Below are positions 13,631 through 52,245 of a stretch of DNA of 64,000 nt, one piece after another. The translations under genes were made by a program, and so were the position numbers. Source of the stretch: Thermoclostridium stercorarium subsp. stercorarium DSM 8532 (lineage in GTDB: Bacteria > Bacillota > Clostridia > DSM-8532). The notes beneath the pieces are model-generated. The model did no database searches, was not told the DNA's origin, and saw only the letters and a program-made list of their open reading frames with translations. Position 1 is the first letter of the stretch; each line of letters starts with the position of its first letter. The stretch lies in assembly GCF_000331995.1 (NCBI RefSeq), contig NC_020134.1, positions 2,578,627 to 2,642,626 of the forward strand, read 5' to 3'.

Positions 13631-15679
13631 TTAATAAATTGTTCTCCCTTTTTCATCAGGAATTCCGCTTTTCCTGTAGAAATATGAATTTATAACGTCG
13701 CGCCATTCAATAGCGTCCCTTATCTGTATTTCCAGTCTCCCGAGGACGTGTTCAAAGCGTTCCTTATCTATCAGTTCTTTCAGCGTAAGCCATTGTTCCC
13801 TGAATTTCCGGACCTGCTCAACGCCCTCAAAATGTGTATCATAAATATGCTGGATAAGCGTTTTCCCTGATTTCAGCCTGTATGTATACGGCACATAATG
13901 GAAGAACAGCAACAGCTCTTCGGGGCAGGTTTCAATGTTATTGTACATTTCGGCATTTTCTTTGTGGTACCTTCCTGCAAAACCCGTACCTGTTTCAACC
14001 GAACGATCAACGCCGATGCCGAAGCAGTCTGCACGGTGATATGTACCCCACGGCGAATATTCATATCCGTCCACGTTCGGGCCATAATGGTGCCCGGGAT
14101 TAACCATCCAGCCAATGCCAAGCGGTGAAGTGTAATTTTCGTATGTTCTCCAGGATTTCAGCAGAATGCTGCTTATTGTTTTAACTACATAGGGATGCGA
14201 CGAAAAGGTAAGACGAACCCATTCTTCGGTAATTTCCTCAGCGCTCCTGTCAGGATTGAAAGCCAGACATCCGTAACCGTACAGATTGGCCTGGGCAAGA
14301 ACGTGTCCGGTCCAGTTCAAATCGCTGCCGATATTGGAAACCGCAGCAATTCCCCCGTATTTCTGGGGATATATTTTACCGGCTATTATTTCCCTGACCG
14401 TTGAGCCCCTGCCTTCCGCAAAAGTGTCAAAATCAAGGATTTCTTTCCACTGCGGGACAAGATAGCATATATGCTTCTGCTGCCCTGTGTATTCCTGCGT
14501 AATCTGAAGCTCCAGCATCTGATTTGTCTTCGTCAGCCCGCCGAACAACGGCGATACCGGTTCACGCACCTGAAAATCCATTGGCCCGTTTTTGATCTGC
14601 AGTATTACATTATCCATAAATTTTCCGTCAAGGGGCATGAAAGTATCATAGGCTGCGTTGGCTCTGTCGGTCTTTCTGTCCCGCCAGTCCTGCTTGCAGT
14701 TATATACAAAACAGCGCCATATTACAACACCCCCGAAAGGTTCCAGAGCCTTTGCAAGCATATTGGCTCCTTCGGCGTGATCCCTGCCATACGTAAACGG
14801 GCCTGGCCTGTATTCCGAATCGGCTTTTACGAGAAAACCTCCGAAATCAGGTATGTAACTGTATATTTCTTCCGCCTTTTCACGCCACCAGTTCTGAACC
14901 CTTACATCCAGCGGGTCGGCAGTGGGCAGCTCTCCCAGTTCAACCGGGCTTGCGAAATTCACCGACAGGAATACGGTTATGCCGTATTCCCTGAATATAT
15001 CAGCGAGTTTGGCCACTTCAGGAAGGTAAAGTTTTGTTATCAGGCGGGTTTCATGGTAATGAACATTGACATTGTTAATCACAATACCGTTTATACCGAT
15101 GGACGCAAGGAGTCTTGCGTAATCTCTCACCCTTGTTTTGTCGTCTATAAAGCCATTATTGGCGTAAAAGATGGAATTTCCCGCATAACCCCTCTCTATC
15201 GTGCCGTCCATATTGTCCCAGTGGTTGATCATGCGAAGCATGTTCGCCGGATTGTTAACAAGGTTTATTTTCTCAAGCGGAGTCTCCAGCTGTAAAAGCC
15301 TCAGGAACGCGAAAACTCCGTATAAAACCCCCCTGTCGGTTTTCCCGGCTATTATGGTTTTTCCGTCCCGGTACCGGACAATGTATCCCTCTTTTTCAAC
15401 ACCTGATGCCAATTCTTCCGGAAGACTTTTTATGTTTTCGCAAAAGCCCAGGACAATTCCTCCGTCAGAATCCGCCGTATCTGCCGGAGCTTTGCCCAAT
15501 ATTTTTTCAAGGCCAAATTTAAGCTCATTTAATGCGGTTTTAAAAACCAGCGATTCCTCAAGCACAGATATTCCGGAAAAAGCCTCGGTATATTCCTTCA
15601 AAACTTCGGCGTTTTTTATAGTACGATAAGACAGCCAGCAGTCATAAGAAGGGTTTTCTCCGAAATTTGGCAGTTTCAT
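13631..15679 (-). CDS. aguA: GH67 alpha-glucuronidase
   Basis: Removes 4-O-methylglucuronic acid from the ends of xylo-oligosaccharides. The protein has 682 residues, no signal peptide and the GH67 layout: an N-terminal beta domain from SYDCWLSY, a barrel with [21 protein letters not shown] and [10 protein letters not shown], and a C-terminal helical part with [10 protein letters not shown]. It therefore acts inside the cell on imported oligosaccharides. No xylan transporter or xylanase lies beside it. The ATG at 15679 is the only plausible start (a stop lies just upstream in frame), yet the Shine-Dalgarno lies 31 bases away beyond a perfect hairpin. Confidence 0.95.
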
Positions 15680-41730: not shown

Positions 41731-42528
41731 TTACATCAGAACGGTATATTTCGCAATTGCGCCCGTTGGGCAAACCTTAATGCATTCACCGCAGTTTTCA
41801 CATTTGGCTGTGTCTATTACAGCTTTAAAATTCACAATAGTAATGGCTTCTTTCGGGCATGTCTTCACGCACTTTCCGCATGCAATGCAGGCTACCTTGC
41901 AGTTTTTGCGCGCCACGGCACCTTTTTCTTCATTGCTGCACGCCACCGAATACCCTGATCTCGCAGGAACCAGTTTAATAATCAGTTTGGGACATTCGGC
42001 TATGCATTTTCCGCAACCGGTGCATTTTGTCTCATCAATTCTCGCAAGCCCGTTTTCCACCGTAATGGCACCAAAGGCGCATGCCTTTTTACAGCTTCCC
42101 ATTCCGACGCATCCGTAAACGCAGGACGAAGGACCGCCTGACATCGACGCAGCCGAACGGCAGTCCATAATACCGTCATAGTCAAATTTAATATTAACTT
42201 TATCCCATGAACCCTGGCACATAACGCGGGCTACCATCTTCTCACCGGCCTGGTTCTCAACTCCCATAATATCGCTGAGTTTTGCCACAAGTTCAGGCCC
42301 GCCGACAGGGCACCGATTAATTTCGGCTCCGTTCACAATGGCCTCGGCATAATTATCACAGCCTGAAAAACCGCAGGCACCGCAATTTGCACCCGGAAGG
42401 GCTTCACGTACTTTGGCTATTCTGTCATCAACCTTCACTTCAAACTTCACCGAGGCATAGGAAAGAATCAGTCCAAATATCAGCCCCAAACCCGATACAA
42501 GCGCAACGGGGAACAAAACCGTTTCCAT
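41731..42528 (-). CDS. rnfB: Rnf complex subunit B (ferredoxin-type)
   Basis: Electron-entry subunit that takes electrons from reduced ferredoxin in the Rnf complex. The protein has 265 residues: one N-terminal membrane helix (about 4-24), the RnfB-specific cluster CGACGFSGC, then four cysteine-rich motifs including [28 protein letters not shown] and [16 protein letters not shown] for [4Fe-4S] clusters. It is the last gene of the operon, separated from rnfA by a spacer of 120 bases with a threefold repeat. The order C-D-G-E-A-B is the usual clostridial one. Confidence 0.97.
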
Positions 42529-42648: not shown

Positions 42649-43230
42649 TCATATGCCAAACAATCCCTGGAAGCCAAAAAACGCTACGGATACCAATGCA
42701 GCCGCAACCAGCGTAATCGGAAGACCGCGGAATGCCACAGGTATGTCATTTGTCTCAATTCGCTCCCTTACACCCGAAAACAGCACAAGTGCCAGTGTAA
42801 AACCAACCGCAGCTGAAAAACCGAAAACCACTGCCTGCAAAAAGGTATATTTTCTTTCGGCAATTAACAGCGCGGAACCTAAAACAGCGCAGTTTGTCGT
42901 GATAAGCGGCAAATAAATTCCAAGCGCTCTGTACAGCGGCGGCATGAACTTTTTCATAACCGTTTCCACCAACTGTACAAGTGCGGCAATGACGAGAATA
43001 AAAACTATCGTCTGCAAATAGGTAAGATCGTTCGGTATAAGCAGATATTCATTTATAACCCATGTAACAGTTGAAGAAATGGTGATTACAAATATTATAG
43101 CTCCTCCCATACCAACAGCGGTGGACGTTTTTTTGGAAACACCCAGGAAAGGACAAATGCCCAAAAACTTTGACAAAACAAAATTCTCAACAAAAATCGC
43201 AGTTATGGCAATGAGCACTATTTCCCTCAT
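42649..43230 (-). CDS. rnfA: Rnf complex subunit A
   Basis: Integral membrane subunit of the Na+/H+-translocating ferredoxin:NAD oxidoreductase. The protein has 193 residues and six predicted helices, beginning EIVLIAITAIFVENFVLSKFLGICPFLG, with the conserved cysteine of LGICPFLG that helps hold a membrane-embedded FeS cluster with RnfE. The second half carries TTNCAVLGSALLI. Its start overlaps the end of rnfE by one base. Confidence 0.97.
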   Translation of the reverse strand: MREIVLIAITAIFVENFVLSKFLGICPFLGVSKKTSTAVGMGGAIIFVITISSTVTWVINEYLLIPNDLTYLQTIVFILVIAALVQLVETVMKKFMPPLYRALGIYLPLITTNCAVLGSALLIAERKYTFLQAVVFGFSAAVGFTLALVLFSGVRERIETNDIPVAFRGLPITLVAAALVSVAFFGFQGLFGI

Positions 43231-43928
43231 TATTTGTCACCTCCGTTGTGAGCGGCCGCACAACCGGCACAGTTCATGTCACATCCTGAAACAGTTTCAC
43301 CTGACGCTATTTCCTTGTTTCTGACCTTAAGCACCGATAATTTCTGAATAACCGCAACTACAAATCCAAAAGCCAGAAAACCTCCCGGAGGAAGAATCAT
43401 TATAACAGCAGGATCAAACAAATTCTTCGTTACAGGTATACCCATCCATGTGCCCGCACCGATAATTTCACGTACCGAGCCCATTATCAGCAGGGCCATC
43501 GTAAATCCGGCACCCATTCCCAATGCATCCAGGATGGACGCCACGACACCGTTCTTGCTGGCAAACATTTCGGCCCTTGCAAAGATGATGCAGTTAACCA
43601 CAATAAGGGGGATATATATTCCCAACTCCTTGTACACATCGGGAAGATAAGCATGAAGCAGCATATCCACAATGGTTGTAAACCCGGCAATTACGGTAAT
43701 AAACACCGGTATTCTGACCTTATCCGGAACAATTTTGCGAATCAGCGAAATAACTATATTGGAACCCAATAACACAAACGTTGCGGCTATTCCCATGCCA
43801 ATGGCGTTTCTGGCCATTGTTGTAACGGCAAGAGTGGGGCATGTACCAAGCACCAGTTTCAAAACCGGGTTTTCCTTCATAATACCGTTTGTAAGAACTG
43901 AAAGCGCTTTCTTGTCAGACTTTGCCAT
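43230..43928 (-). CDS. rnfE: Rnf complex subunit E with a cysteine-rich tail
   Basis: Membrane subunit homologous to RnfA and arranged in inverted topology. The protein has 232 residues, with NPVLKLVLGTCPTLAVTTMARNAI near the start and VNCIIFARAEMFASKNGV in the middle, the pair of conserved Cys that coordinate the shared FeS cluster. Beyond the usual core the C-terminus ends GCDMNCAGCAAAHNGG, three closely spaced cysteines in a soluble tail. It overlaps rnfA by one base. Confidence 0.96.
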   Translation of the reverse strand: MAKSDKKALSVLTNGIMKENPVLKLVLGTCPTLAVTTMARNAIGMGIAATFVLLGSNIVISLIRKIVPDKVRIPVFITVIAGFTTIVDMLLHAYLPDVYKELGIYIPLIVVNCIIFARAEMFASKNGVVASILDALGMGAGFTMALLIMGSVREIIGAGTWMGIPVTKNLFDPAVIMILPPGGFLAFGFVVAVIQKLSVLKVRNKEIASGETVSGCDMNCAGCAAAHNGGDK

Positions 43929-43929
43929 A

Positions 43930-44502
43930 TCAATTCACCCCATTCATGATTAATTTAACGGCATCCAAAGCAGCCTGAACCCCATCGGTGACCGCACGTG
44001 ATGTAATTGTTGCGCCGCTAATGGCCTGGATTTCATTTGCCGATTTTTTGCCCTGTTTTACTACACTTAGGGTATCATTCACCGTTACTTCCCCGAACTG
44101 ATTTATAAAATCAGGTTCCTTCGCCTTTGAACCCAGACCGGGCGTTTCACTGTTATCTCCCACAATGACTCCCGTAACATGCCCATCGGTATTCACTCCG
44201 ACAGTTAAATTTATCGTGCCGCCATAACCTTTTGTTGTAACATCCACAACATAACCTATCAGATTATCCTGGCTGTAGGCTTCGTAAACTCCGGCCACTT
44301 TATCCGACAATAAACCTTCTTCTTCCAGTTTCACAAACCTGTCGGCCCCGTTCATTACCTGTATTCTGTACTGCTCCTGTTCCTCTTCTGTTCTTGCCAG
44401 TATAATATCTTTCGTCATCCCGTTAACATAAGCCAAAGCACCTGTCACTACCGCACAAACAATAAAAAGGACCAATGTCGGCTTAATAATACTATCCCAC
44501 AC
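43930..44502 (-). CDS. rnfG: Rnf complex subunit G (covalent FMN)
   Basis: Extracytoplasmic electron carrier with one N-terminal membrane helix (about 7-25) and a flavin domain; 190 residues. The Thr of AISGATITSRAVTDGV is the site where FMN is attached by a phosphoester bond. The start is GTG at 44502 because GGAGGTG lies 6 bases before it, and it overlaps rnfD by 11 bases; a longer in-frame start at 44559 lies inside rnfD and is unlikely. Confidence 0.95.
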   Translation of the reverse strand: MWDSIIKPTLVLFIVCAVVTGALAYVNGMTKDIILARTEEEQEQYRIQVMNGADRFVKLEEEGLLSDKVAGVYEAYSQDNLIGYVVDVTTKGYGGTINLTVGVNTDGHVTGVIVGDNSETPGLGSKAKEPDFINQFGEVTVNDTLSVVKQGKKSANEIQAISGATITSRAVTDGVQAALDAVKLIMNGVN

Positions 44503-45460
44503 GTTTTTCACCTCCGAAAGCAACGGGTATCGTATGCCTGTCAATAAGCGGCGTAACAATGTTCATTAAAATTATTGCAAAGGAAACGCCTTCGGGCATA
44601 TTCCCGTAGAGTCTGAACAGAACGGTAAGAATTCCGCAGCCCAATGCGTATATAATCTGTCCTTTCCGTGTCACCGGGCATGTCACGTAATCGGTTGCCA
44701 TGAACACCGCCCCCAGCAGCAACCCACCTGCCAGTACATGGTACAGAGGATCACCGGTGAAAAGACCGTCGGTTCCCAGAATCCATGTTAAAAGCGCCAC
44801 TGTACCGGTATATATAACAGGTATATGCCATGTAATTACCCTTCTTATCAGTAAGTACACAAATCCCAGCAAAATTGCCAGTGCTGAAGTTTCACCGATA
44901 CAACCGGGTACCCTGCCGAGGAACATATCCAGATATGAATACCACACACTTCCTTCAACGGGAGTGGCTGTCGTGGTAGCATCCAGCAGGCTCAGGGGCG
45001 TTGCGGAAGCAACGGCATCAACAAAGGGTTCTGTCCATGTAGTCATATGTTTTGCCCAGGCAACAACAAGAATAACCCTTGCGCCCAGTGCGGGATTCAT
45101 AAAATTCTGTCCAAGACCGCCAAATAACTGCTTAATAAGCCCGGTTGCAATGACCGCTCCCACAACCGCTATCCATAAAGGTATTGACGGAGGAAGATTC
45201 AGAGCCAAAAGAAGACCTGTAACAACGGCACTTAAATCCGAAATTGTCTGTTCCCTTTTCAAACCCTTTCTCATAAGGTATTCGGTCAGTACCGATGCCG
45301 AGACGGTTACAGCAATTACCAATGCCGCACGTAACCCAAAAAACAGAATACCCGCGACCGTTGAAGGAATTAATGCGATAATTACATCCAACATTAATCT
45401 CTGCGTGGTCACATTATCCCTTAAATGTGGAGACGAACATACAAACAGCCTGTTTTCCAA
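44492..45460 (-). CDS. rnfD: Rnf complex subunit D
   Basis: Membrane subunit with about nine helices and a covalently bound FMN on the outer side; it forms part of the ion path. The protein has 322 residues. The modification motif is VASATPLSLL (Thr), and FGGLGQNFMNPALGARVIL is a family block. I prefer TTG at 45460 because GAGGTGA lies just before it and the resulting start (MENRLFVCSSPHLRDN) matches RnfD N-termini; the GTG at 45469 lies inside that site. Confidence 0.95.
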   Translation of the reverse strand: MENRLFVCSSPHLRDNVTTQRLMLDVIIALIPSTVAGILFFGLRAALVIAVTVSASVLTEYLMRKGLKREQTISDLSAVVTGLLLALNLPPSIPLWIAVVGAVIATGLIKQLFGGLGQNFMNPALGARVILVVAWAKHMTTWTEPFVDAVASATPLSLLDATTTATPVEGSVWYSYLDMFLGRVPGCIGETSALAILLGFVYLLIRRVITWHIPVIYTGTVALLTWILGTDGLFTGDPLYHVLAGGLLLGAVFMATDYVTCPVTRKGQIIYALGCGILTVLFRLYGNMPEGVSFAIILMNIVTPLIDRHTIPVAFGGEKRVG

Positions 45461-45470
45461 TGCCCTCACC

Positions 45471-46787
45471 TCAATTTCTGTTCACTTTCAGCCTTCTGAC
45501 TGCATCTTTACCAATGCGGATGGACTGCACAAGATGCCTCTTTGACGGGCATGAATAAGAACAGCTTCCACATTCTATGCAATCGAGAATATGGTATCTT
45601 TCCAGTTCGTCAATTTTATTGGCCAGTACAAGACGATTTATTTCCAGAGGCAGTAAATTCATCGGGCAGGCTTCGACACATCTTCCGCAGCGGATGCATG
45701 GCCACTCGGAAGGAAGATCTCCCTCTTTTTTGTCAAATGCAAGTATTGCGTTAGTATTTTTAATAACCGAAGTCTCAAGGGAATATTGGGCAATTCCCAT
45801 CATAGGCCCGCCCATCAGTACTTTGTACGGAGTTGACTTAAAACCCCCGCAAAAATCAAAAAGTGTCTGTAAAGATGTTCCGATCGGCGCCAAAACATTT
45901 TTAGGCTGGTTTACCACAGGCCCGTCCACGGTTACACGTCTTTGTACAAGAGGCATGCCTGTTTTGACATAAGAAGCTATGAACGCAACCGTGTTAACGT
46001 TAAGAACCACACAGCCCACGTCAGCAGGCAGTTTCCCCGAAGGAATCTTCCTGCCGGTAAGCGCGTAAACCAGTGTTTTTTCCGCCCCCTGGGGGTAACG
46101 GGATCTTAGGCTTTGCACCGAAATCCGATTATCGTTTTGAGCCTTTTCCTTTAACAGTTTATATGCCTTCGGTTTGTTGTCTTCAATACCCATAATGGCT
46201 TTGGGAATGCTAAGATAATCCAGTACAAGCTTAATCCCTTCAATTATTCCATCGGGATTCTCAAGCATTTCCCTGTAGTCCGACGTAATATAAGGCTCAC
46301 ATTCCGCGCCGTTAACGATAAGACAATCAATTACTTTATCCTTCGGAGGATTAAGTTTTACATGGGTTGGAAAGCCCGCGCCGCCCAGGCCGACGAGACC
46401 GGAACTCCTTACGGCTTTAAGAAAGTCTTCCCGGTTTTTTATTTCAGGCGGTGAAATGCCTTCATATACTTCCTGCTTGCCGTCGGTTTTAATTTCGACG
46501 GACATGACAAGATTGCCGCCTGCAAAAAGCATCGGTTCAACTCTCGTTACCGTGCCCGAAACACTGGAATGAATCGGAGCAGACACATACGCTTCACTGT
46601 CGCCAATCTTCTGTCCCACTTTCACTGTGTCACCCGGCTTGACAGTGGGCGTACATGGGGCACCTATATGCTGGACCATCGGTATTACCACTTTCTCCGG
46701 GATGTCGAGAACAGAGGTCTCCGACTCGGCGGTATTTTTGCGATGTGGTGCAGATACACCGCCATGAAACACCCATTTTAATGGCAT
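45471..46787 (-). CDS. rnfC: Rnf complex subunit C
   Basis: Peripheral subunit that reduces NAD+ at the cytoplasmic face; first gene of the operon. The protein has 438 residues: an N-terminal barrel (HIGAPCTPTVKPGDTVKVGQ), the NADH/FMN-binding region with VGLGGAGFPTHVKLNP and LIVNGAECEPYITSD, and two C-terminal [4Fe-4S] motifs (CIRCGRCVEACP and CIECGSCSYSCPS). GAGGTGA 4 bases upstream supports ATG 46787. It starts about 140 bases after the complex-I-like large subunit gene and faces the same way. Confidence 0.97.
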   Translation of the reverse strand: MPLKWVFHGGVSAPHRKNTAESETSVLDIPEKVVIPMVQHIGAPCTPTVKPGDTVKVGQKIGDSEAYVSAPIHSSVSGTVTRVEPMLFAGGNLVMSVEIKTDGKQEVYEGISPPEIKNREDFLKAVRSSGLVGLGGAGFPTHVKLNPPKDKVIDCLIVNGAECEPYITSDYREMLENPDGIIEGIKLVLDYLSIPKAIMGIEDNKPKAYKLLKEKAQNDNRISVQSLRSRYPQGAEKTLVYALTGRKIPSGKLPADVGCVVLNVNTVAFIASYVKTGMPLVQRRVTVDGPVVNQPKNVLAPIGTSLQTLFDFCGGFKSTPYKVLMGGPMMGIAQYSLETSVIKNTNAILAFDKKEGDLPSEWPCIRCGRCVEACPMNLLPLEINRLVLANKIDELERYHILDCIECGSCSYSCPSKRHLVQSIRIGKDAVRRLKVNRN

Positions 46788-46877
46788 AGACTCACCTCGT
46801 TTCATTTTGACGTAAAAAATCTACAAGTTAATAATATCATACGGCCAGTAAATTGTGAATATGGATTATGTTTTTTG

Positions 46878-46911
46878 TATACAAGACAAAAGCGTCAAAA
46901 AACCTTGTATA
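46878..46911. repeat. Inverted repeat before rnfC
   Basis: TATACAAG (46878-46885) and CTTGTATA (46904-46911) flank an 18-base centre in the spacer between the complex-I-like module and rnfC. No T-run follows on the minus strand, so an operator is more likely than a terminator. No convincing promoter was found in the spacer. Confidence 0.45.
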
Positions 46912-46924
46912 ATGCTGATTTCCT

Positions 46925-48292
46925 CTATTTTTCCATAGCGGAAAAATCAAGATCCAGACTTGCTATGACCAGAGGCACGTCATTTAATTCGGTGCCTTTT
47001 AAAATGCCGTCCAGAAATGGGAAGTTTATTGTGGATGAATTTCGTATTTTTATATTGGTAACAAGCTCTTCGTCAAGGCTGACATGAATAACCAGCTCGC
47101 CAAAAGCCTCGGGTTCGCGGACAAGTATTTCCCCATTGCTTTTCAGCCTTGGCCTGTCAGATGTCCTTATATCTCCCTCATGCATTATTTCCACTGTCTG
47201 ATCAATAAGTGACAGGGACAATAATATGTCTTCAAATATAAGCATCGTGCGGGTAAAACTATTGCTTTCGCCGGCTGTTGGAATTTTATATGACAATACA
47301 TGATAAGGGAGTCTGGACAGTTTACGTACATCCTCCCTTAAACCTGCCGCGCGTGCGGCACGTCCAGTCATTCTCGCGGCGGTATTTTTGTCTATTTTTC
47401 CGGTGGCTTTCATTCTTTCTGTAATGGACTGGGTATTGTTCCACCTGTCCCGCATAGCCGATAAAACGCCCACCATTTCCTGAAGAATTACATTAACCCG
47501 CACCAGCGTCTCGATTCCTGTGTCAATGCTCAGGCCTCCGGGAACAAGTATGCCTTTAAGCTGTGGATCATTGGTTATTAATAATGCCGCTTCATTATAC
47601 AGACTGATTAATTTAAAAATTTCCGAGCTGTCCGATAAAAGTCCGAGGCATTTGGTAATATGGCTAAGGCTGTACAGATTGGCACGCAAAAAACTCATTT
47701 CGTTTAAAATAAGCCTGAGTAAATTTGCCTTGGGAGGAACCGCAATTTCGTTTATTGCTTCAACTGCGTGTAAAAAAGCCAGCCCTATCGAAAATCCGTT
47801 TACCGACGATATTCTTTCCAGCATGTCCAATACATTCGGAATTTTTTCACCAATGCATAATCTTTCTATCCCTCGGTAATTATACCCTGTTTCAATACAA
47901 ACTTTATCTATCACGTCATCCTTAAGGGAAAATCTGAATAAAACAGGTTCCTGAAGCAAAGGGTGAAATGGCCCCCATTCAAAGGACAAACCGTCATTTT
48001 TTTCATGTTCTTTATTATGTGATACGAACATTACAGGATAAGTTCCGGCTATTTCCCTCTCCATTTGTGCCCCTTCGGGAAAAACTCCGGTTATTGACGG
48101 GAAAGTACCGTTTTCCGGTAAATCTGTTTCCACCGTTTCAATATACCCGTCCTTTTCAAGCATATATTGCAGTTTAACATACCCGTCATCACAGGCGCTT
48201 TTAATGAAAACCAGCCTGTACCCCATCAATTTATATCCAAACATCTTGCCCATAAATGCCCTTCCCTGTTTTTCATTCCAAGAACGTTTCAT
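46925..48292 (-). CDS. Complex I/group-4 hydrogenase-like large subunit lacking the NiFe cysteines
   Basis: A 455-residue NuoC-NuoD-type fusion. The N-terminal third resembles NuoC (FPSITGVFPEGAQMEREIAG). From about 105 on it follows the large-subunit pattern: EWGPFHPLLQEPVLFRF, GYNYRGIERL (canonical GYxHRGIEK) and MLERISSVNGFS where hydrogenases have ERICGxCG. The C-terminal SLDLDFSAMEK aligns with SxDPCxxCTDR. All four NiFe-ligand cysteines are thus replaced, and the HRGIE His is Tyr. It cannot be a hydrogenase; an Ehr-type or novel oxidoreductase is the best guess. Its ATG overlaps the stop of the small-subunit gene (ATGA). Confidence 0.8.
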   Translation of the reverse strand: MKRSWNEKQGRAFMGKMFGYKLMGYRLVFIKSACDDGYVKLQYMLEKDGYIETVETDLPENGTFPSITGVFPEGAQMEREIAGTYPVMFVSHNKEHEKNDGLSFEWGPFHPLLQEPVLFRFSLKDDVIDKVCIETGYNYRGIERLCIGEKIPNVLDMLERISSVNGFSIGLAFLHAVEAINEIAVPPKANLLRLILNEMSFLRANLYSLSHITKCLGLLSDSSEIFKLISLYNEAALLITNDPQLKGILVPGGLSIDTGIETLVRVNVILQEMVGVLSAMRDRWNNTQSITERMKATGKIDKNTAARMTGRAARAAGLREDVRKLSRLPYHVLSYKIPTAGESNSFTRTMLIFEDILLSLSLIDQTVEIMHEGDIRTSDRPRLKSNGEILVREPEAFGELVIHVSLDEELVTNIKIRNSSTINFPFLDGILKGTELNDVPLVIASLDLDFSAMEK

Positions 48293-48738
48293 ACTGCATT
48301 CCTGCCTTTTCCCCAATGATAATCAGCCTCACCGGCATTTTCCAGCGCACGTACAACCGCTTCGAGCATTTCGTTTGCCCCGGGAGTACATCCCCTTATC
48401 CACGAATTAACAGGCAACACTTCCTCTGCGGTATAAAGCCCGTTATTTTCCTTACGGAACAGTCCTCCTGAACATGTACATGCACCTACTGCTATAACGG
48501 CCTTTGGAGACGGGATCTTTTCATACACTTCAAGAATCTTTTTCCTTGACTTTTCGTTAATACAGCCGCAAATGAGCATGCAGTCGGCATGCTTGGGATT
48601 ATCGGTAACGGTTATACCCCTGATTTCACCGTTTCCGCACAAAGCCATCGAAAACTGGAAGTTACAGTCTCTACAGCCACCGGCCTGTACAATAAAAACC
48701 GATATCGAACGTGTCCTGAATTTTTTAAACCATTTCAC
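48289..48738 (-). CDS. NuoB/EchC-like small FeS subunit
   Basis: Small subunit of 149 residues. All four ligands of the proximal [4Fe-4S] (N2-like) cluster are present: C22 and C25 in GGCRDC, C87 in VIAVGACTCSGG and C117 in IRGCTPG. The NPKHADCMLICG segment fits the family's HADVLLVTG. Extra cysteines (34, 53, 57, 59, 89) are notable. With the large subunit having lost its NiFe site, this cluster would be the main redox centre. It overlaps the large-subunit gene by 4 bases and lies 36 bases after the NuoH-like gene. Confidence 0.85.
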   Translation of the reverse strand: MKWFKKFRTRSISVFIVQAGGCRDCNFQFSMALCGNGEIRGITVTDNPKHADCMLICGCINEKSRKKILEVYEKIPSPKAVIAVGACTCSGGLFRKENNGLYTAEEVLPVNSWIRGCTPGANEMLEAVVRALENAGEADYHWGKGRNAV

Positions 48739-48774
48739 CTGTAAGCACTCCTTTTTTCTTATTAAACTTCTGAA

Positions 48775-49616
48775 TCAAAAATAAAAAACGTATATAAAGT
48801 TTATAAGGGACATACCGGCAGCCCAACCCCAGGACAGCCTTGCGGCCTTTTTCCACTCCACCGTTGAAATAAACCTGTCCAGAAGCATAAAAGCAAGGTA
48901 TAACACCGAAATGATTAAATAGGATACAGATTTTACAACCGGAAGGAAATATGAAAGTATTTTAATCCATACACCCATTTCAATCCACTGGGCCATCTGA
49001 ATTACCGCCAGACTCCATCCGCTGTACGGCGAATAAAGGGCATCACCGAAAACAGACATTTCGGTACCCGACAGTCCGAAATCAAAATGCATCAGATTAC
49101 CCTTCATAAGCAGAATTATAAACAACGAAACAAAAGTAAACGGAAGGTCTATAATAATACAGTTGCTTTCCGAAAGCCGGGATATTTCACTGAGTTTAAG
49201 AGTTCTACAAACTTTATAAATCGTCGCCGAAGAAACAATTGAAGCAAACAGCCAGATTATAAACCTTGAAAGTCCCCTTTTGGCCGATACCCTGCCCGAA
49301 AAGTCGTTACTGCTGAAAGCGCCCGTTATAACAAGCAAATCCATCATTGACAGCACCGAAACCACAAAAAGGAAATTATATCCGGAAACGGCCATATAAA
49401 GCGCAATTAATGAAAATAAACATGCTCCGGCCGAAAAAAATACGAAGGAAAATTGCTGCCGTCGTCCTTCTTTCCAAAAAACTTCAACAGCCTGTAGACA
49501 GGCTGAAGTGCGTAAGTTTTGCTCTGTCCTGGCATCAGCGAATTTATATAATTGTATGCAATATATATCACCGGAACTGACAGGATTATGGCAATGAACC
49601 ACGCTATTTTAAGCAT
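48775..49616 (-). CDS. NuoH/EchB-like membrane subunit, split by a -1 frameshift
   Basis: Two overlapping frames together give one NuoH-like protein. Frame 1 starts at ATG 49616 and reads a membrane helix then SLMPGQSKTYALQPVYRLLK, the family's GRxGPxxLQPxxDxxK block; it stops at 49407. Frame 2 (open from 49602) runs to 48775 with further helices and a YSGWSLAVIQMAQWIE block. They join by a -1 step at the T7 run 49434-49440 (T TTT TTT in frame 1), giving about 280 residues, the usual length. The cause may be programmed slippage, a real mutation or a sequencing error. It overlaps the antiporter-like gene by 13 bases. Confidence 0.75.
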
Positions 49617-50938
49617 GACAGACTCACCCCCAGAGTAATGGCCGCCGTGGTAATATAACCTATTTTAATTATAAGGCGGAAATTTATGTTGAACGGGAGA
49701 ATGTAATTAACGGGATGTTCATCGTTTGTGTCGGTTGTATTACCCGTATGTGTGAATATCGTAGAAATCCACAGAATTATATATGCCACGGTCAGAACAA
49801 TTCCGGCAATAACCAGCAGCAGTGGTATCGGATTGTCTGAAAGAAATCTCACATGGGACGGAATGTTCTTAAAGGCAGTAGCCACCGCAAGGCCCGATAT
49901 GCTCATGATTAAACTTAAAATACTGTGCCTGTTCCTGTAAAACAAAAGGGCAAAATATGCCCCTGAAAATACCAGAATTCCTCCGTATATCATCATAAGG
50001 GAAATAACATTGCCGTCAAGGTTATTAAACAGCTGCCGGAATTTCAACAGTACACCGTAGGGCGCAAATAACGAAAAAATAATTAAATAAAGACCCGTCC
50101 CGGGAACAATTTTCAGTGTGTCAAACCAGTGTACGCAATTTTCGGGAATCAGCATCCCCATTAAAATTGCGGATGTGAAAATGATCAACGCCAAAAGTTC
50201 GGAAACTTTTCCAAAACCGTCTATAAAATCCGCCATTGCCAGTGAACCCGTTAATTTATAGGCTGTCACGCCAGCGGCCAGAAAAAGCGTAAGTGCCGCC
50301 TGCTGAAAATAAATAACCGTACGCGGAATGTTGTTTTCATTCCGGGAATCGCGAAAGCCTTTTAAAAATATATACGCCGATATAAACTGCCATTGCCAGA
50401 ACAGAAACAAGCCTGTCATGCTGCTGGATGAAATAAGCCCTGCAAAAGAAGAAAGCAGAAGGGCAAATCCCATGGTAAAATATCTGAGTTTATCGGGTAA
50501 ACCTTTATAATGCTTTTTCAGTAAATAAATTATAAATGGAATAAAAAACAAAACAATAACAGCACCAAAAAGTAACAAATATTTCTCTTTTATATTCAGG
50601 TATAAAAAACTTGCAGGCTCATCAGGCAGTAAAATAACTTCGAATAAAATGAGGATTAACGCCTGAACAGCGGCAAACACCGATATAATAAACTGCCTGT
50701 CCTTTATTGAGCGTAAAAAAATAACAATAACGGTGGCAACCGAAATAATTCTCCATATGACCGCGGGTACTGTGAAGTTTACCGAACCGGGAACCGCTAA
50801 TGTTAAAATGGCACACAGCAAAAACAGAAGACCCGATATTGCCGTTACCAGATATATGCTTTTTTCCCTTTCCAAAAAAATTGTAACGAAAAACATAATC
50901 AGCGGCACAATAACCGGACACAGCACCAGTAAATCCAT
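49604..50938 (-). CDS. NuoL/M/N antiporter-like membrane subunit with altered pump residues
   Basis: Membrane protein of 444 residues with about 13 helices, first gene of the complex-I-like module. The segment SSSSMTGLFLFWQWQFISAYIFLKG (here about 170-194) matches the helix-5 block of NuoM/NuoN, but the conserved Glu of FWEL appears as Gln (about 182). The expected Lys/His block around helix 7 (KSAQxPFHxWLP) reads as ILMGMLIPENCVHW, with the Lys apparently missing. Proton pumping by the classical route is therefore doubtful. GGAGGACAAGTT precedes the ATG. The alignment is by eye. Confidence 0.7.
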   Translation of the reverse strand: MDLLVLCPVIVPLIMFFVTIFLEREKSIYLVTAISGLLFLLCAILTLAVPGSVNFTVPAVIWRIISVATVIVIFLRSIKDRQFIISVFAAVQALILILFEVILLPDEPASFLYLNIKEKYLLLFGAVIVLFFIPFIIYLLKKHYKGLPDKLRYFTMGFALLLSSFAGLISSSSMTGLFLFWQWQFISAYIFLKGFRDSRNENNIPRTVIYFQQAALTLFLAAGVTAYKLTGSLAMADFIDGFGKVSELLALIIFTSAILMGMLIPENCVHWFDTLKIVPGTGLYLIIFSLFAPYGVLLKFRQLFNNLDGNVISLMMIYGGILVFSGAYFALLFYRNRHSILSLIMSISGLAVATAFKNIPSHVRFLSDNPIPLLLVIAGIVLTVAYIILWISTIFTHTGNTTDTNDEHPVNYILPFNINFRLIIKIGYITTAAITLGVSLSCLK

Positions 50939-51002
50939 AACTTGTCCTCCAGCATAATTTATCTTTAATTAGTATATTAATTTTTGTATAATTCCACAAG
51001 GA

Positions 51003-51824
51003 CTATTTATCATAGGAAATAATACCTGCTTCGGCTCTTTTCTCGGCTGCCTTGAAAACTATCAGTGCGGCGGCAATAGCGGCGTTAAGCGAGTTAATTT
51101 TCCCGAACATCGGGATTCTGATAAGCACATCACAGTTTTCCCGTACCAGTCGGCTTATTCCTTCCCCTTCACTGCCGATTACAATCGCCAGAGGACTTTT
51201 ATAATCATATTCGCTATAATCGGTTTCACCGTGCATATCGGCTCCGGCAATCCAGAGCCCTGCTTCTTTTAAATCCTGTATTGTTCTTGTAAGATTTGTA
51301 ACCCTTGCAATAGGGATATATTCCGCGGCGCCGGCCGCAACTTTTGCCACAACGGGGGTAAGCGCAGCCGCTCTTCTTTTGGGCAGAATAATCCCGTGCA
51401 CTCCCGCGCACTCCGCGGTTCTGACAATGGAACCAAGATTATTCGGATCGGTTATTCCGTCAAGTATTAATATCAGCGGGGGCTGATTAAGGTTTCTGGC
51501 TTTTTCCAGTATATCCTCAACGTCGGCATACGAATAGGGAGCCACATCGGCAATTACTCCCTGGTGGTTTCTGGTTTCCGATAACTGATCCAGCCTGGAT
51601 TTTTCCACGTATGATACAACAATCCCCTTACCTCTTGCAACGGCATAAATCTTTTCCAGAACGGGATCCTTTGAACCTTTTTCGATATAAATCCTGTTTA
51701 TCGTGCGATCTGCCTTAAGCGCCTCAAGCACCGGGTTTTTCCCTTCGATTTTTCCGGTCTCTTCATGCTGCTCACCGGTGTTTTCGCGGTAATATTTCCC
51801 GTCCTCATTCTTCCTTTTCCCCAT
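51003..51824 (-). CDS. rlmB: 23S rRNA 2'-O-methyltransferase RlmB (TrmH family)
   Basis: SPOUT-class methyltransferase, 273 residues. It has an N-terminal substrate-binding domain (about 22-100, GKNPVLEALKADRTINRIYI) and a knotted SAM-binding domain with ILDGITDPNNLGSIVRTAECAG, VIGSEGEG and MFGKINSLNAAIAAALIVF. AAGGAG lies 9 bases before the ATG at 51824; earlier in-frame starts exist inside mrnC. It overlaps mrnC by 20 bases, a common clostridial pair. The complex-I-like module starts 65 bases after its stop. Confidence 0.92.
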   Translation of the reverse strand: MGKRKNEDGKYYRENTGEQHEETGKIEGKNPVLEALKADRTINRIYIEKGSKDPVLEKIYAVARGKGIVVSYVEKSRLDQLSETRNHQGVIADVAPYSYADVEDILEKARNLNQPPLILILDGITDPNNLGSIVRTAECAGVHGIILPKRRAAALTPVVAKVAAGAAEYIPIARVTNLTRTIQDLKEAGLWIAGADMHGETDYSEYDYKSPLAIVIGSEGEGISRLVRENCDVLIRIPMFGKINSLNAAIAAALIVFKAAEKRAEAGIISYDK

Positions 51825-52245
51825 TGTGTTTTTCTCCTTCCTGCTCATTTTCAATTATTTCAGCGGCCATATTCAGAATCTCTTCAAGGCGTTCATTCAT
51901 ACCAAGGAGATACAAATATCCCAGAACCGCTTCAAAGGCGGTGGCCCTGCGGTAATCCAAAACGTCCGCGTGCTTGGGTATTGTGGCCGATTTGGTATTT
52001 CTCCCCCTTCTTAATATGTTTTTTTCTTCATCATTAAGCTTGTCCTGCAGTTTGCTCACAATTTTGCTCTGCGCCGAGGCTTTGACGTAATTTATGGCTT
52101 TGACATGCATCATGTGCGCCGATTCATTTTTTTTCATTACAAGGCGGCTTCTTATAAAAAGGTTAAACACCGCATCTCCGACAAATGCCAGAACAAGCGG
52201 CGAAAGCCGGTTAACATACTGTATATCAGGTTTTTCAGTTTTCAT
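51805..52245 (-). CDS. mrnC: Mini-ribonuclease III
   Basis: Trims 23S rRNA precursor ends; an RNase III catalytic domain without the dsRNA-binding domain. The protein has 146 residues. Catalytic-region features are LVLAFVGDAVFNLFIRSRL near the N-terminus and RRGRNTKSATIPKHADVLDYRRATAFEAVLGYLYL in the second half, carrying the acidic residues. It heads an mrnC-rlmB operon. cysS, the usual upstream neighbour, is absent; instead a 790-base gene-poor region follows. Confidence 0.93.
   Translation of the reverse strand: MKTEKPDIQYVNRLSPLVLAFVGDAVFNLFIRSRLVMKKNESAHMMHVKAINYVKASAQSKIVSKLQDKLNDEEKNILRRGRNTKSATIPKHADVLDYRRATAFEAVLGYLYLLGMNERLEEILNMAAEIIENEQEGEKHNGEKEE

Follow-up and report, generated by a model that had tools for sequence, protein, structure and literature searches.

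Gene content of the locus

The window analysed here is a whole stretch of 64,000 nucleotides from Thermoclostridium stercorarium subsp. stercorarium DSM 8532 (contig NC_020134.1, positions 2,578,627 to 2,642,626), and our subject is a block of four minus-strand genes within it (46925-50938), which we call the module. The genes encode an antiporter-like membrane protein of the NuoL/M/N type, a NuoH-like membrane protein, a NuoB-like small subunit and a fused NuoC-NuoD large subunit (NuoCD). On one side the block is bounded by a gene that we take to be rlmB-like, with a presumably mini-RNase III-like gene (mrnC) alongside it, and on the other by rnfC, followed by rnfD, G, E, A and B (Table 1). 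The four genes are closely packed: the antiporter-like gene overlaps the start codon of nuoH, nuoH and nuoB are 36 bases apart, and the stop codon of nuoB is overlapped by the start codon of nuoCD. In the window 64 bases separate rlmB from the module, and the gap between nuoCD and rnfC is 119 bases, not about 140 as given in the original prediction, which had been made from the sequence alone. The four genes and their place directly before the Rnf genes are as that prediction described them, while its spacing, its reading frame for nuoH, its assignment to NuoL/M/N and its wording that all genes read into rnfC had to be corrected.

No ferredoxin-like, NuoE/F-like or NuoI-like gene was seen among the open reading frames (ORFs) of at least 80 amino acids (aa) in the block, which agrees with the prediction, and neither NuoJ, NuoK, NuoA nor an NADH module was seen in the four-gene block. 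A HyfE-like EhrC was not seen there either, the only extra minus-strand ORF of at least 80 aa in the block lying within the first gene, in a different frame (50622-50999); the rest of the genome was not searched for it. Rfam at its gathering thresholds gave no match between 41000 and 53000.

Distribution and selection

The NuoCD of the window finds ten full-length orthologues with 43-69% identity among 60 relatives, together with weaker homologues from group 4 hydrogenases. When the surroundings were compared, using phmmer matches of E 1e-4 or better, the order rlmB, antiporter-like gene, nuoH, nuoB, nuoCD, rnfC was the same in all ten relatives as in the window. The neighbours further out, mrnC before and rnfDGEAB after, are also kept, barring two contig ends: mrnC is missing in L030 and rnfG to rnfB in L031 because the contigs end, in L031 after rnfD. 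Two of the records, L002 and G003, are apparently the same. The module occurs in 11 of the 32 genomes of the family, spread over four genera (g1, g4, g5 and g6), with 735-781 bits in the family search. Taking together these 32 genomes, 391 of the class and 398 of the phylum, it scores at least 733 bits and every other group-4 homologue at most 228 (at most 227 in the searches, 228 when rescored as ORFs). In the class and phylum samples, where at most four first-look candidates were scored per genome, the profile search gave no module beyond the family, nothing exceeding 227 bits except four members of the genus (class) and the window genome itself (phylum); the genomes of g4-g6, which the class sample omitted, are covered by the family search. 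A scan of the genome contigs gave two loci only.

Rnf is far from rare in the same genomes: 52 of 61 relatives have an rnfC match at E 1e-20 or better, as do 30 of the 32 family genomes. The module, then, and not the widespread Rnf, is the special part of the arrangement. Around rnf in 12 genomes that lack the module there is no match to the module, rlmB or mrnC in the surroundings examined, which reach about 0.4 kb upstream of rnfC in L046 and 1.6-2.4 kb in L050, L052 and L054.

All four genes are under purifying selection. The ratios of nonsynonymous to synonymous change (dN/dS, Nei-Gojobori) were about 0.12-0.28 for the antiporter-like gene, 0.11-0.26 for nuoH, about 0.09-0.19 for nuoB and 0.12-0.20 for nuoCD, with 0.06-0.11 for rnfC as a comparison, and within the genus of the window 0.09-0.17 for all four genes in unsaturated pairs. 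These ratios are rough, as synonymous change is high, pairs with a saturated proportion of synonymous differences give no value (all pairs with L002, and the window with L028 for nuoB), and the window nuoH entered the four-gene comparison with the part after its frame break only. The module is thus real, conserved and selected, and a decaying copy confined to one strain, which had been named as a case that would speak against it, is not what we find, the module being present in 11 genomes.

The frame break in nuoH

In the window the N-terminal 60 or so codons of nuoH, from the ATG at 49616, lie in another frame than the 275-aa ORF that holds the rest, and the two frames part at a run of seven identical bases (49434-49440). 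The window nuoH is consequently not a single open frame, as it is in all ten relatives. Both halves look equally conserved, with dN/dS of about 0.14 and 0.13 against L027 and of 0.09 and 0.13 against L028. The first, 454-based sequence of C. stercorarium had 35 homopolymer errors corrected by RNA-seq, and no correction is listed there from 2,365,983 to 2,656,461, the interval that holds this locus (about 2.628 Mb) if the coordinates agree (PMC4102724). Since no correction is listed at the locus, a recent mutation may have broken the frame, the sequence may hold an error left uncorrected, or the break may be bypassed at the T7 run.

It could be argued that the module is a decaying relic, at least in the genus of the window, where the antiporter-like gene has its short form in all four members searched and nuoH is broken in the window itself. 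We find this improbable, as the within-genus ratios of 0.09-0.17 hold for all four genes in unsaturated pairs, both halves of the window nuoH evolve like the intact copies (about 0.09-0.14), and there is a single break in four genes.

Identification of the subunits

Three of the subunits are recognised by their profiles. In the Pfam and NCBIfam search NuoCD matches Complex1_49kDa (E 7e-22), NuoB matches Oxidored_q6 (E 2e-17) and NuoH matches NADHdh (E 2e-7), the last a weak identification that stands beside an hhalign probability of 99.85% against EchB. The antiporter-like protein is more difficult, having no credible Pfam match for any of the 11 orthologues and none in NCBIfam or among the PDB sequences. 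Against EchA of the relatives hhalign gives a probability of 97% (E 3.6e-11, 494 columns, 17% identity). Structures were predicted for two proteins, the long form of the antiporter-like subunit and NuoCD. The former, a low-confidence model (predicted local distance difference test, pLDDT, 53.7), superposes on NuoL, MrpD, MbsH and MbhH with Z 19-20 and a root mean square deviation (rmsd) of 4.4-5.0 over about 410-440 residues, at 11-18% identity. On the alignment to EchA and the fold of this model, the first gene would encode an antiporter-like subunit. The counterparts named in the prediction are in other words recognisable for NuoCD, NuoB and NuoH, but for NuoL/M/N only at the level of fold and profile comparison. 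The subunit has 444 aa in the window and open frames of 529-642 aa in the other genera. The ORF of 529 aa, in L030, is without the C-terminal part, perhaps through a fault in the assembly.

The NuoCD model (pLDDT 72) has the fold of NuoD, with Z 24 and rmsd 2.1 over 240 residues. In sequence the best matches among solved structures are all to the hydrogenase Mbh (6cfw), with E 2e-19 for NuoCD, 2e-21 for NuoB and 1e-8 for the NuoH profile, and the nearest solved relatives are MbhL for NuoCD and MbhJ for NuoB.

Loss of the NiFe site

When the large subunits are aligned with those of Ech and Mbh, all 11 module proteins read S-x-x-(N/S) in place of the first CxxC pair, at the L1 motif, and D-x-x-(G/A/S) in place of the C-terminal one. 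None of them has any of the four cysteines that bind nickel and iron (NiFe) and that the aligned Ech and Mbh rows carry. The PRG motif, which has a role at the NiFe site, is also lost in all 11, its arginine being replaced. The claim that the large subunit cannot bind NiFe thus extends to every module genome, and no relative with the same genes and intact NiFe motifs, which would have spoken against it, turned up among the candidates scored in the genomes searched, where other group-4 homologues stay at or below 228 bits. Several residues of NuoCD are invariant all the same (E159, S162, D449, S451, M453, E454 and K455), and the protein ends in D-x-S-x-M-E-K in 11 of 11. Apart from E159, these residues argue that the former NiFe pocket is still constrained.

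Of 61 genomes 11 carry the maturation gene hypD, needed for NiFe sites, and they are the very ones that have a further group-4 match. The gene is missing in 10 of the 11 module genomes. In the exception, G012, a second large subunit with both cysteine pairs is encoded in a separate NiFe-type operon. Cysteine pairs are carried by the other large subunits of the Ech and Mbh types; the Ehr-like ones of L021 and L025 have none, L022 has variant CxxC pairs, and the fragments L023 and L026 show one pair each. The operon in G012 (L044) and that of L041 are Mbh-like, with several large hydrophobic proteins that are probably of the Mrp type.

The NuoB-like protein keeps the four predicted ligands of one [4Fe-4S] iron-sulphur (FeS) cluster in all 11 genomes as CxxC...G(A/T)C...(G/S)C, with six invariant cysteines in total. 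One of the two extra ones lies in GCINE and has no counterpart in eight Ech/Mbh rows; the other, two residues past the third ligand, is common to several of those rows.

In this light the published annotation as a NiFe hydrogenase in C. stercorarium is hardly credible. MbhL and MbhJ are indeed the closest solved relatives of NuoCD and NuoB, but we rejected this function on the missing ligands (all four cysteines and the PRG arginine, 11 of 11) and on the missing hypD (10 of 11).

If the module were a minimal quinone reductase resembling complex I, the NuoD-like fold of NuoCD would fit, and so would its C-terminus, which we assume to be of NuoD-like shape. The NuoB of complex I has tandem cysteines and that of the module has CxxC. 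As for the quinone, PF02621 of the futalosine route matched in none of the 11 module genomes, and menD in none above the cut-off (weaker matches occur in 10 of 11 and also in all 14 controls), which makes a quinone acceptor unlikely and this function very improbable. UbiA was tried as a quinone marker and dropped as uninformative, being found in all 11 module genomes and in all 14 controls.

Loss of the pump residues

The roles of the channel residues in the membrane subunits are known from work on complex I. The antiporter-like protein was mapped on NuoL, NuoM and NuoN of Escherichia coli and six EchA. The glutamate of transmembrane helix 5 (TM5; NuoL E144) is glutamine in 11 of 11 module proteins, the TM7 lysine (K229) is C, M, I, L or S in all 11, and the TM8 lysine (NuoM K265) is hydrophobic in all 11. 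NuoN K247 falls in a different TM8 column, where the module has serine throughout. E. coli HycC was not used for TM7 because it has no lysine in that column and is likely misaligned. In the four short forms, all from the genus of the window, the TM12 segment is missing. NuoH was mapped on E. coli NuoH and six EchB with ten module proteins. Positions D63, D111, E157, E220 and E228, which are acidic in the six EchB, hold no acid in any of the ten, and a helix of the LQPxYRLxKxxxK type is retained. A count of conserved charged residues within helices predicted from hydropathy separated the module poorly from Ech (2 against 4 columns in one case, 2 against 2 in the other), and this criterion was abandoned for the residue mapping. 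Judged by the residues, the module is probably not a conventional pump.

The gap before rnfC

The gap holds the palindrome TTGTATACAA, followed by a pair resembling -35 and -10 elements, and both the palindrome and a downstream hexamer TTCACA are conserved in all 11 genomes. It is this conservation that is the evidence for an element, since a scan for promoter-like sites overall was no richer than shuffled sequence (24 against a mean of 23.0). A 16-base pattern, allowing one mismatch, has 6 matches in the genome against 1 for the control. Two of the matches are exact, in the rnfC gap and before a gene pair that is presumably pta-ackA, and a copy with one mismatch precedes a gene that we take to be HydC/NuoE-like. 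The sequence TTGTATACAAAAAACA is common to the rnfC and pta-ackA gaps and is found with one mismatch at the HydC-like gene (window 46875-46884; L085 1501-1516; L088 1501-1516). The palindrome also precedes EchA in L039 and L042 and rnfC in L049, and variants differing in one letter lie near EchA in L037 and rnfC in L046. The pattern suggests that rnf is driven by a promoter of its own and belongs to a redox-related regulon, and the shared element might perhaps answer to one redox or fermentation regulator. Co-transcription with the module is not implied by such a promoter-like element, and the earlier statement that all genes read into rnfC does not show one transcript. No terminator-like site was found in the gap, so read-through is possible.

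We also compared the Rnf subunits of the module genomes (10 or 11 rows) with those of 12 genomes that lack the module, 6 of them from the family. There is at most one clade-specific fixed exchange per subunit, and the indels are one single-column gap each in RnfG and RnfB. That Rnf has been remodelled to dock the module was rejected on these few exchanges and single-column gaps, together with the absence of any gain or loss of a conserved cysteine.

Table 1. Features of the module and its neighbourhood, in window coordinates
Feature	Position	Strand	Basis
Antiporter-like (NuoL/M/N, EchA-type) membrane subunit, putative, short form, 444 aa; TM5 Glu to Gln, TM7/TM8 Lys replaced, no TM12 segment	49604..50938	-	
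NuoH/EchB-like membrane subunit in two frames (N-terminal part 49616 to ~49441; rest is the 275-aa ORF frame); E-channel acids mostly gone in relatives	48775..49616	-	
Homopolymer run, A7 on the plus and T7 on the coding strand; site of the nuoH frame break	49434..49440	.	
NuoB/EchC-like small subunit of 149 aa, with the cluster ligands CxxC, GAC and GC and one more invariant Cys in GCINE	48289..48738	-	
Fused NuoC-NuoD (EchD-EchE) large subunit, 455 aa from ATG 48292 (ORF opens at 48316); without NiFe Cys	46925..48292	-	
Gap before rnfC: palindrome TTGTATACAA (46875-46884), -35/-10-like pair (46859-46831, minus strand)	46806..46924	.	
rnfC	45471..46805	-	
rnfD	44492..45469	-	synteny
rnfG	43930..44559	-	synteny
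rnfE	43230..43928	-	synteny
rnfA	42649..43230	-	synteny
rnfB	41731..42528	-	synteny
Presumed rlmB-like rRNA methyltransferase, conserved upstream neighbour	51003..51854	-	
Presumed mini-RNase III-like gene (mrnC), alongside rlmB	51805-52245		

Elsewhere in the window, at 13631-15679, lies an ORF that by eye resembles an alpha-glucuronidase (GH67) in its translation.

Relationship to known complexes

The module has the subunit types of Ech, arranged likewise as A(L)-B(H)-C(B)-D/E(C/D); its membrane subunits match EchA and EchB of relatives by profile, and its large subunit shares a GPxHPxxxEP-type motif. It differs from Ech in lacking the NiFe cysteines, the ferredoxin subunit EchF, which is present in the Ech operons of the relatives, and the pump residues, in the fusion of EchD with EchE, and in the absence of hypD from 10 of the 11 genomes. 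With complex I it shares the folds of NuoD (Z 24) and, in the low-confidence model, NuoL (Z 20), but it has just four genes and a hydrogenase-type CxxC in NuoB. Mbh, which gave the best matches among solved structures, has NiFe ligands and Mrp-type Na+/H+ antiporter subunits, unlike the module.

Ehr complexes are the nearest known type. The Geobacter ehr and Mbx-like systems, as far as the partial texts available describe them, likewise have large and small subunits of the group-4 kind without NiFe ligands (PMC7894505, PMC6349859), and antiporter-like and NuoH-like membrane subunits are also shared. In contrast to Geobacter, which according to the same source has EhrC (PMC7894505), no such HyfE-like subunit was seen in the module block; the small subunit also lacks the FeS-domain extension of the L021 type, and the pump residues are lost. 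In the tree, which held 43 rows of 59 matches after removal of identical rows and of rows covering at most 250 aligned residues, the 11 module large subunits form one clade on a long branch. The large subunits of L021 and L025, the sole Ehr-like rows, do not group with it, but the placing of the module among Ech and Ehr is unsure (57/36 at the base) because long branches meet there. By eye, L021 and L025 are Ehr-like loci with a fused NuoC-D that has no NiFe cysteines, and the small subunit of L021 has an N-terminal FeS-type motif.

The adjacency to Rnf has already been noted in C. stercorarium, where a 'dimeric Ni-Fe hydrogenase' was described as co-located with it (PMC4102724). The parts of that paper available to us do not mention the lack of NiFe ligands, the two membrane subunits or the lost pump residues. 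Titles and abstract openings of the open-licence literature gave no description of a four-gene unit without NiFe or of the lost pump residues, and the accessible parts of PMC12174285 and PMC3492117 do not mention such a unit. What is new here is the loss of the TM5 glutamate, the TM7 and TM8 lysines and the NuoH acids (E157/220/228), and the module is a strongly reduced, new variant of the Ech/Ehr type.

Interpretation

A compact, Ehr-like module without NiFe ligands, as the original prediction had it, is conserved in the clade and stands directly before rnfC in 11 of 11 genomes. As the NiFe ligands and the pump residues are both lost, it would be neither a hydrogenase nor a conventional pump, and our reading, to which we give a rough probability of 0.45, is that the module is a non-pumping redox module derived from Ech/Ehr beside Rnf. 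Its four genes would then make one membrane complex whose ancestors were group 4 hydrogenases, on the Ech/Ehr branch within the complex I superfamily, and which, at the same tentative level, has given up both H2 chemistry and conventional pumping. NuoH and the antiporter-like subunit could serve as membrane anchor. The NuoB cluster, if it is bound as the ligands suggest, could exchange single electrons with a low-potential donor, either soluble or borne by Rnf, such as reduced ferredoxin, RnfB or RnfC, and the donor would have to come from outside because none of the module genes encodes a ferredoxin-type subunit. The former NiFe pocket may bind another acceptor or a small ligand, and the unit as a whole might work as a non-pumping redox branch or a redox sensor alongside Rnf. 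A direct partnership with Rnf is possible on the conserved gene order. In the fullest version, which we regard as rather unlikely, a membrane complex of the complex I family without metal site and pump residues would have been recruited as a partner of Rnf that conducts electrons or senses redox state, its NiFe pocket holding a new ligand.

Several observations weigh against this reading. The module is missing from 19 of the 30 family genomes that have rnfC, and in the window strain the complex may be incomplete, with nuoH broken. In the antiporter-like subunit the TM12 position is basic in 5 of the 7 long forms (glycine in 2), which would suit some ion-channel function, and because the alignment is remote (17% identity) TM5 is placed more securely than TM7 and TM8. 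Some acids of NuoH are also partly left (D213 in 7 of 10, E36 in 7, E216 in 3 and E218 in 1). On the side of Rnf, rnfC has a conserved promoter-like element of its own, and no conserved cysteine has been gained or lost in the module genomes by the criterion of our script. With no such cysteine change seen in Rnf and a separate promoter-like element, the link between module and Rnf rests on the conserved adjacency, and the earlier suggestion that the two exchange electrons or are coupled is not supported by the analysis.

These observations lend something to two other explanations. The module could be redox-active and unrelated to Rnf, a neighbour in the genome that is perhaps expressed with rlmB, 64 bases ahead of it in the window, and that carries out another reaction; the promoter-like element of rnfC speaks for this, as does the lack of any co-adapted change seen in the Rnf proteins. 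We hold this to be an unlikely but reasonable explanation, since the adjacency to rnfC has been kept in 11 of 11 genomes and four genera while NuoCD has diverged to 43-69% identity with that of the window. Or the module could be an ion-pumping complex of the Ehr type in which other residues have replaced the usual ones. The basic residues in TM12, the remaining NuoH acids and a fold matching NuoL, MrpD and MbsH are in its favour, and known Ehr complexes are thought to translocate ions, as the available part of one account has it (PMC6349859). We consider it distinctly unlikely: the TM5, TM7 and TM8 residues are gone in 11 of 11 and the five NuoH acids in 10 of 10, four genomes lack the TM12 segment altogether, and two Ehr-like loci in our comparison keep lysines in TM7- and TM11-type motifs, as judged by eye. 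Of the two possibilities first raised, a minimal Ehr variant or something new, the Ehr-like nature without NiFe stands, and the lost pump residues, which had not been noticed, weigh against an Ehr that is minimal but still energy-converting.

The non-pumping redox module beside Rnf is then the reading we carry forward, and its retention by selection despite the loss of the hydrogen-making site and most pump residues suggests a new job for an old machine. Complex I, Mrp and the group 4 hydrogenases are compared with each other to learn which residues pump. The reading would correct a published annotation, which for C. stercorarium places a 'dimeric Ni-Fe hydrogenase' next to Rnf (PMC4102724). 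If it is true, the family has a natural and selected member that keeps the fold and one FeS cluster and has neither the channel glutamate and lysines nor the NiFe site, and which would show what role remains for the scaffold.

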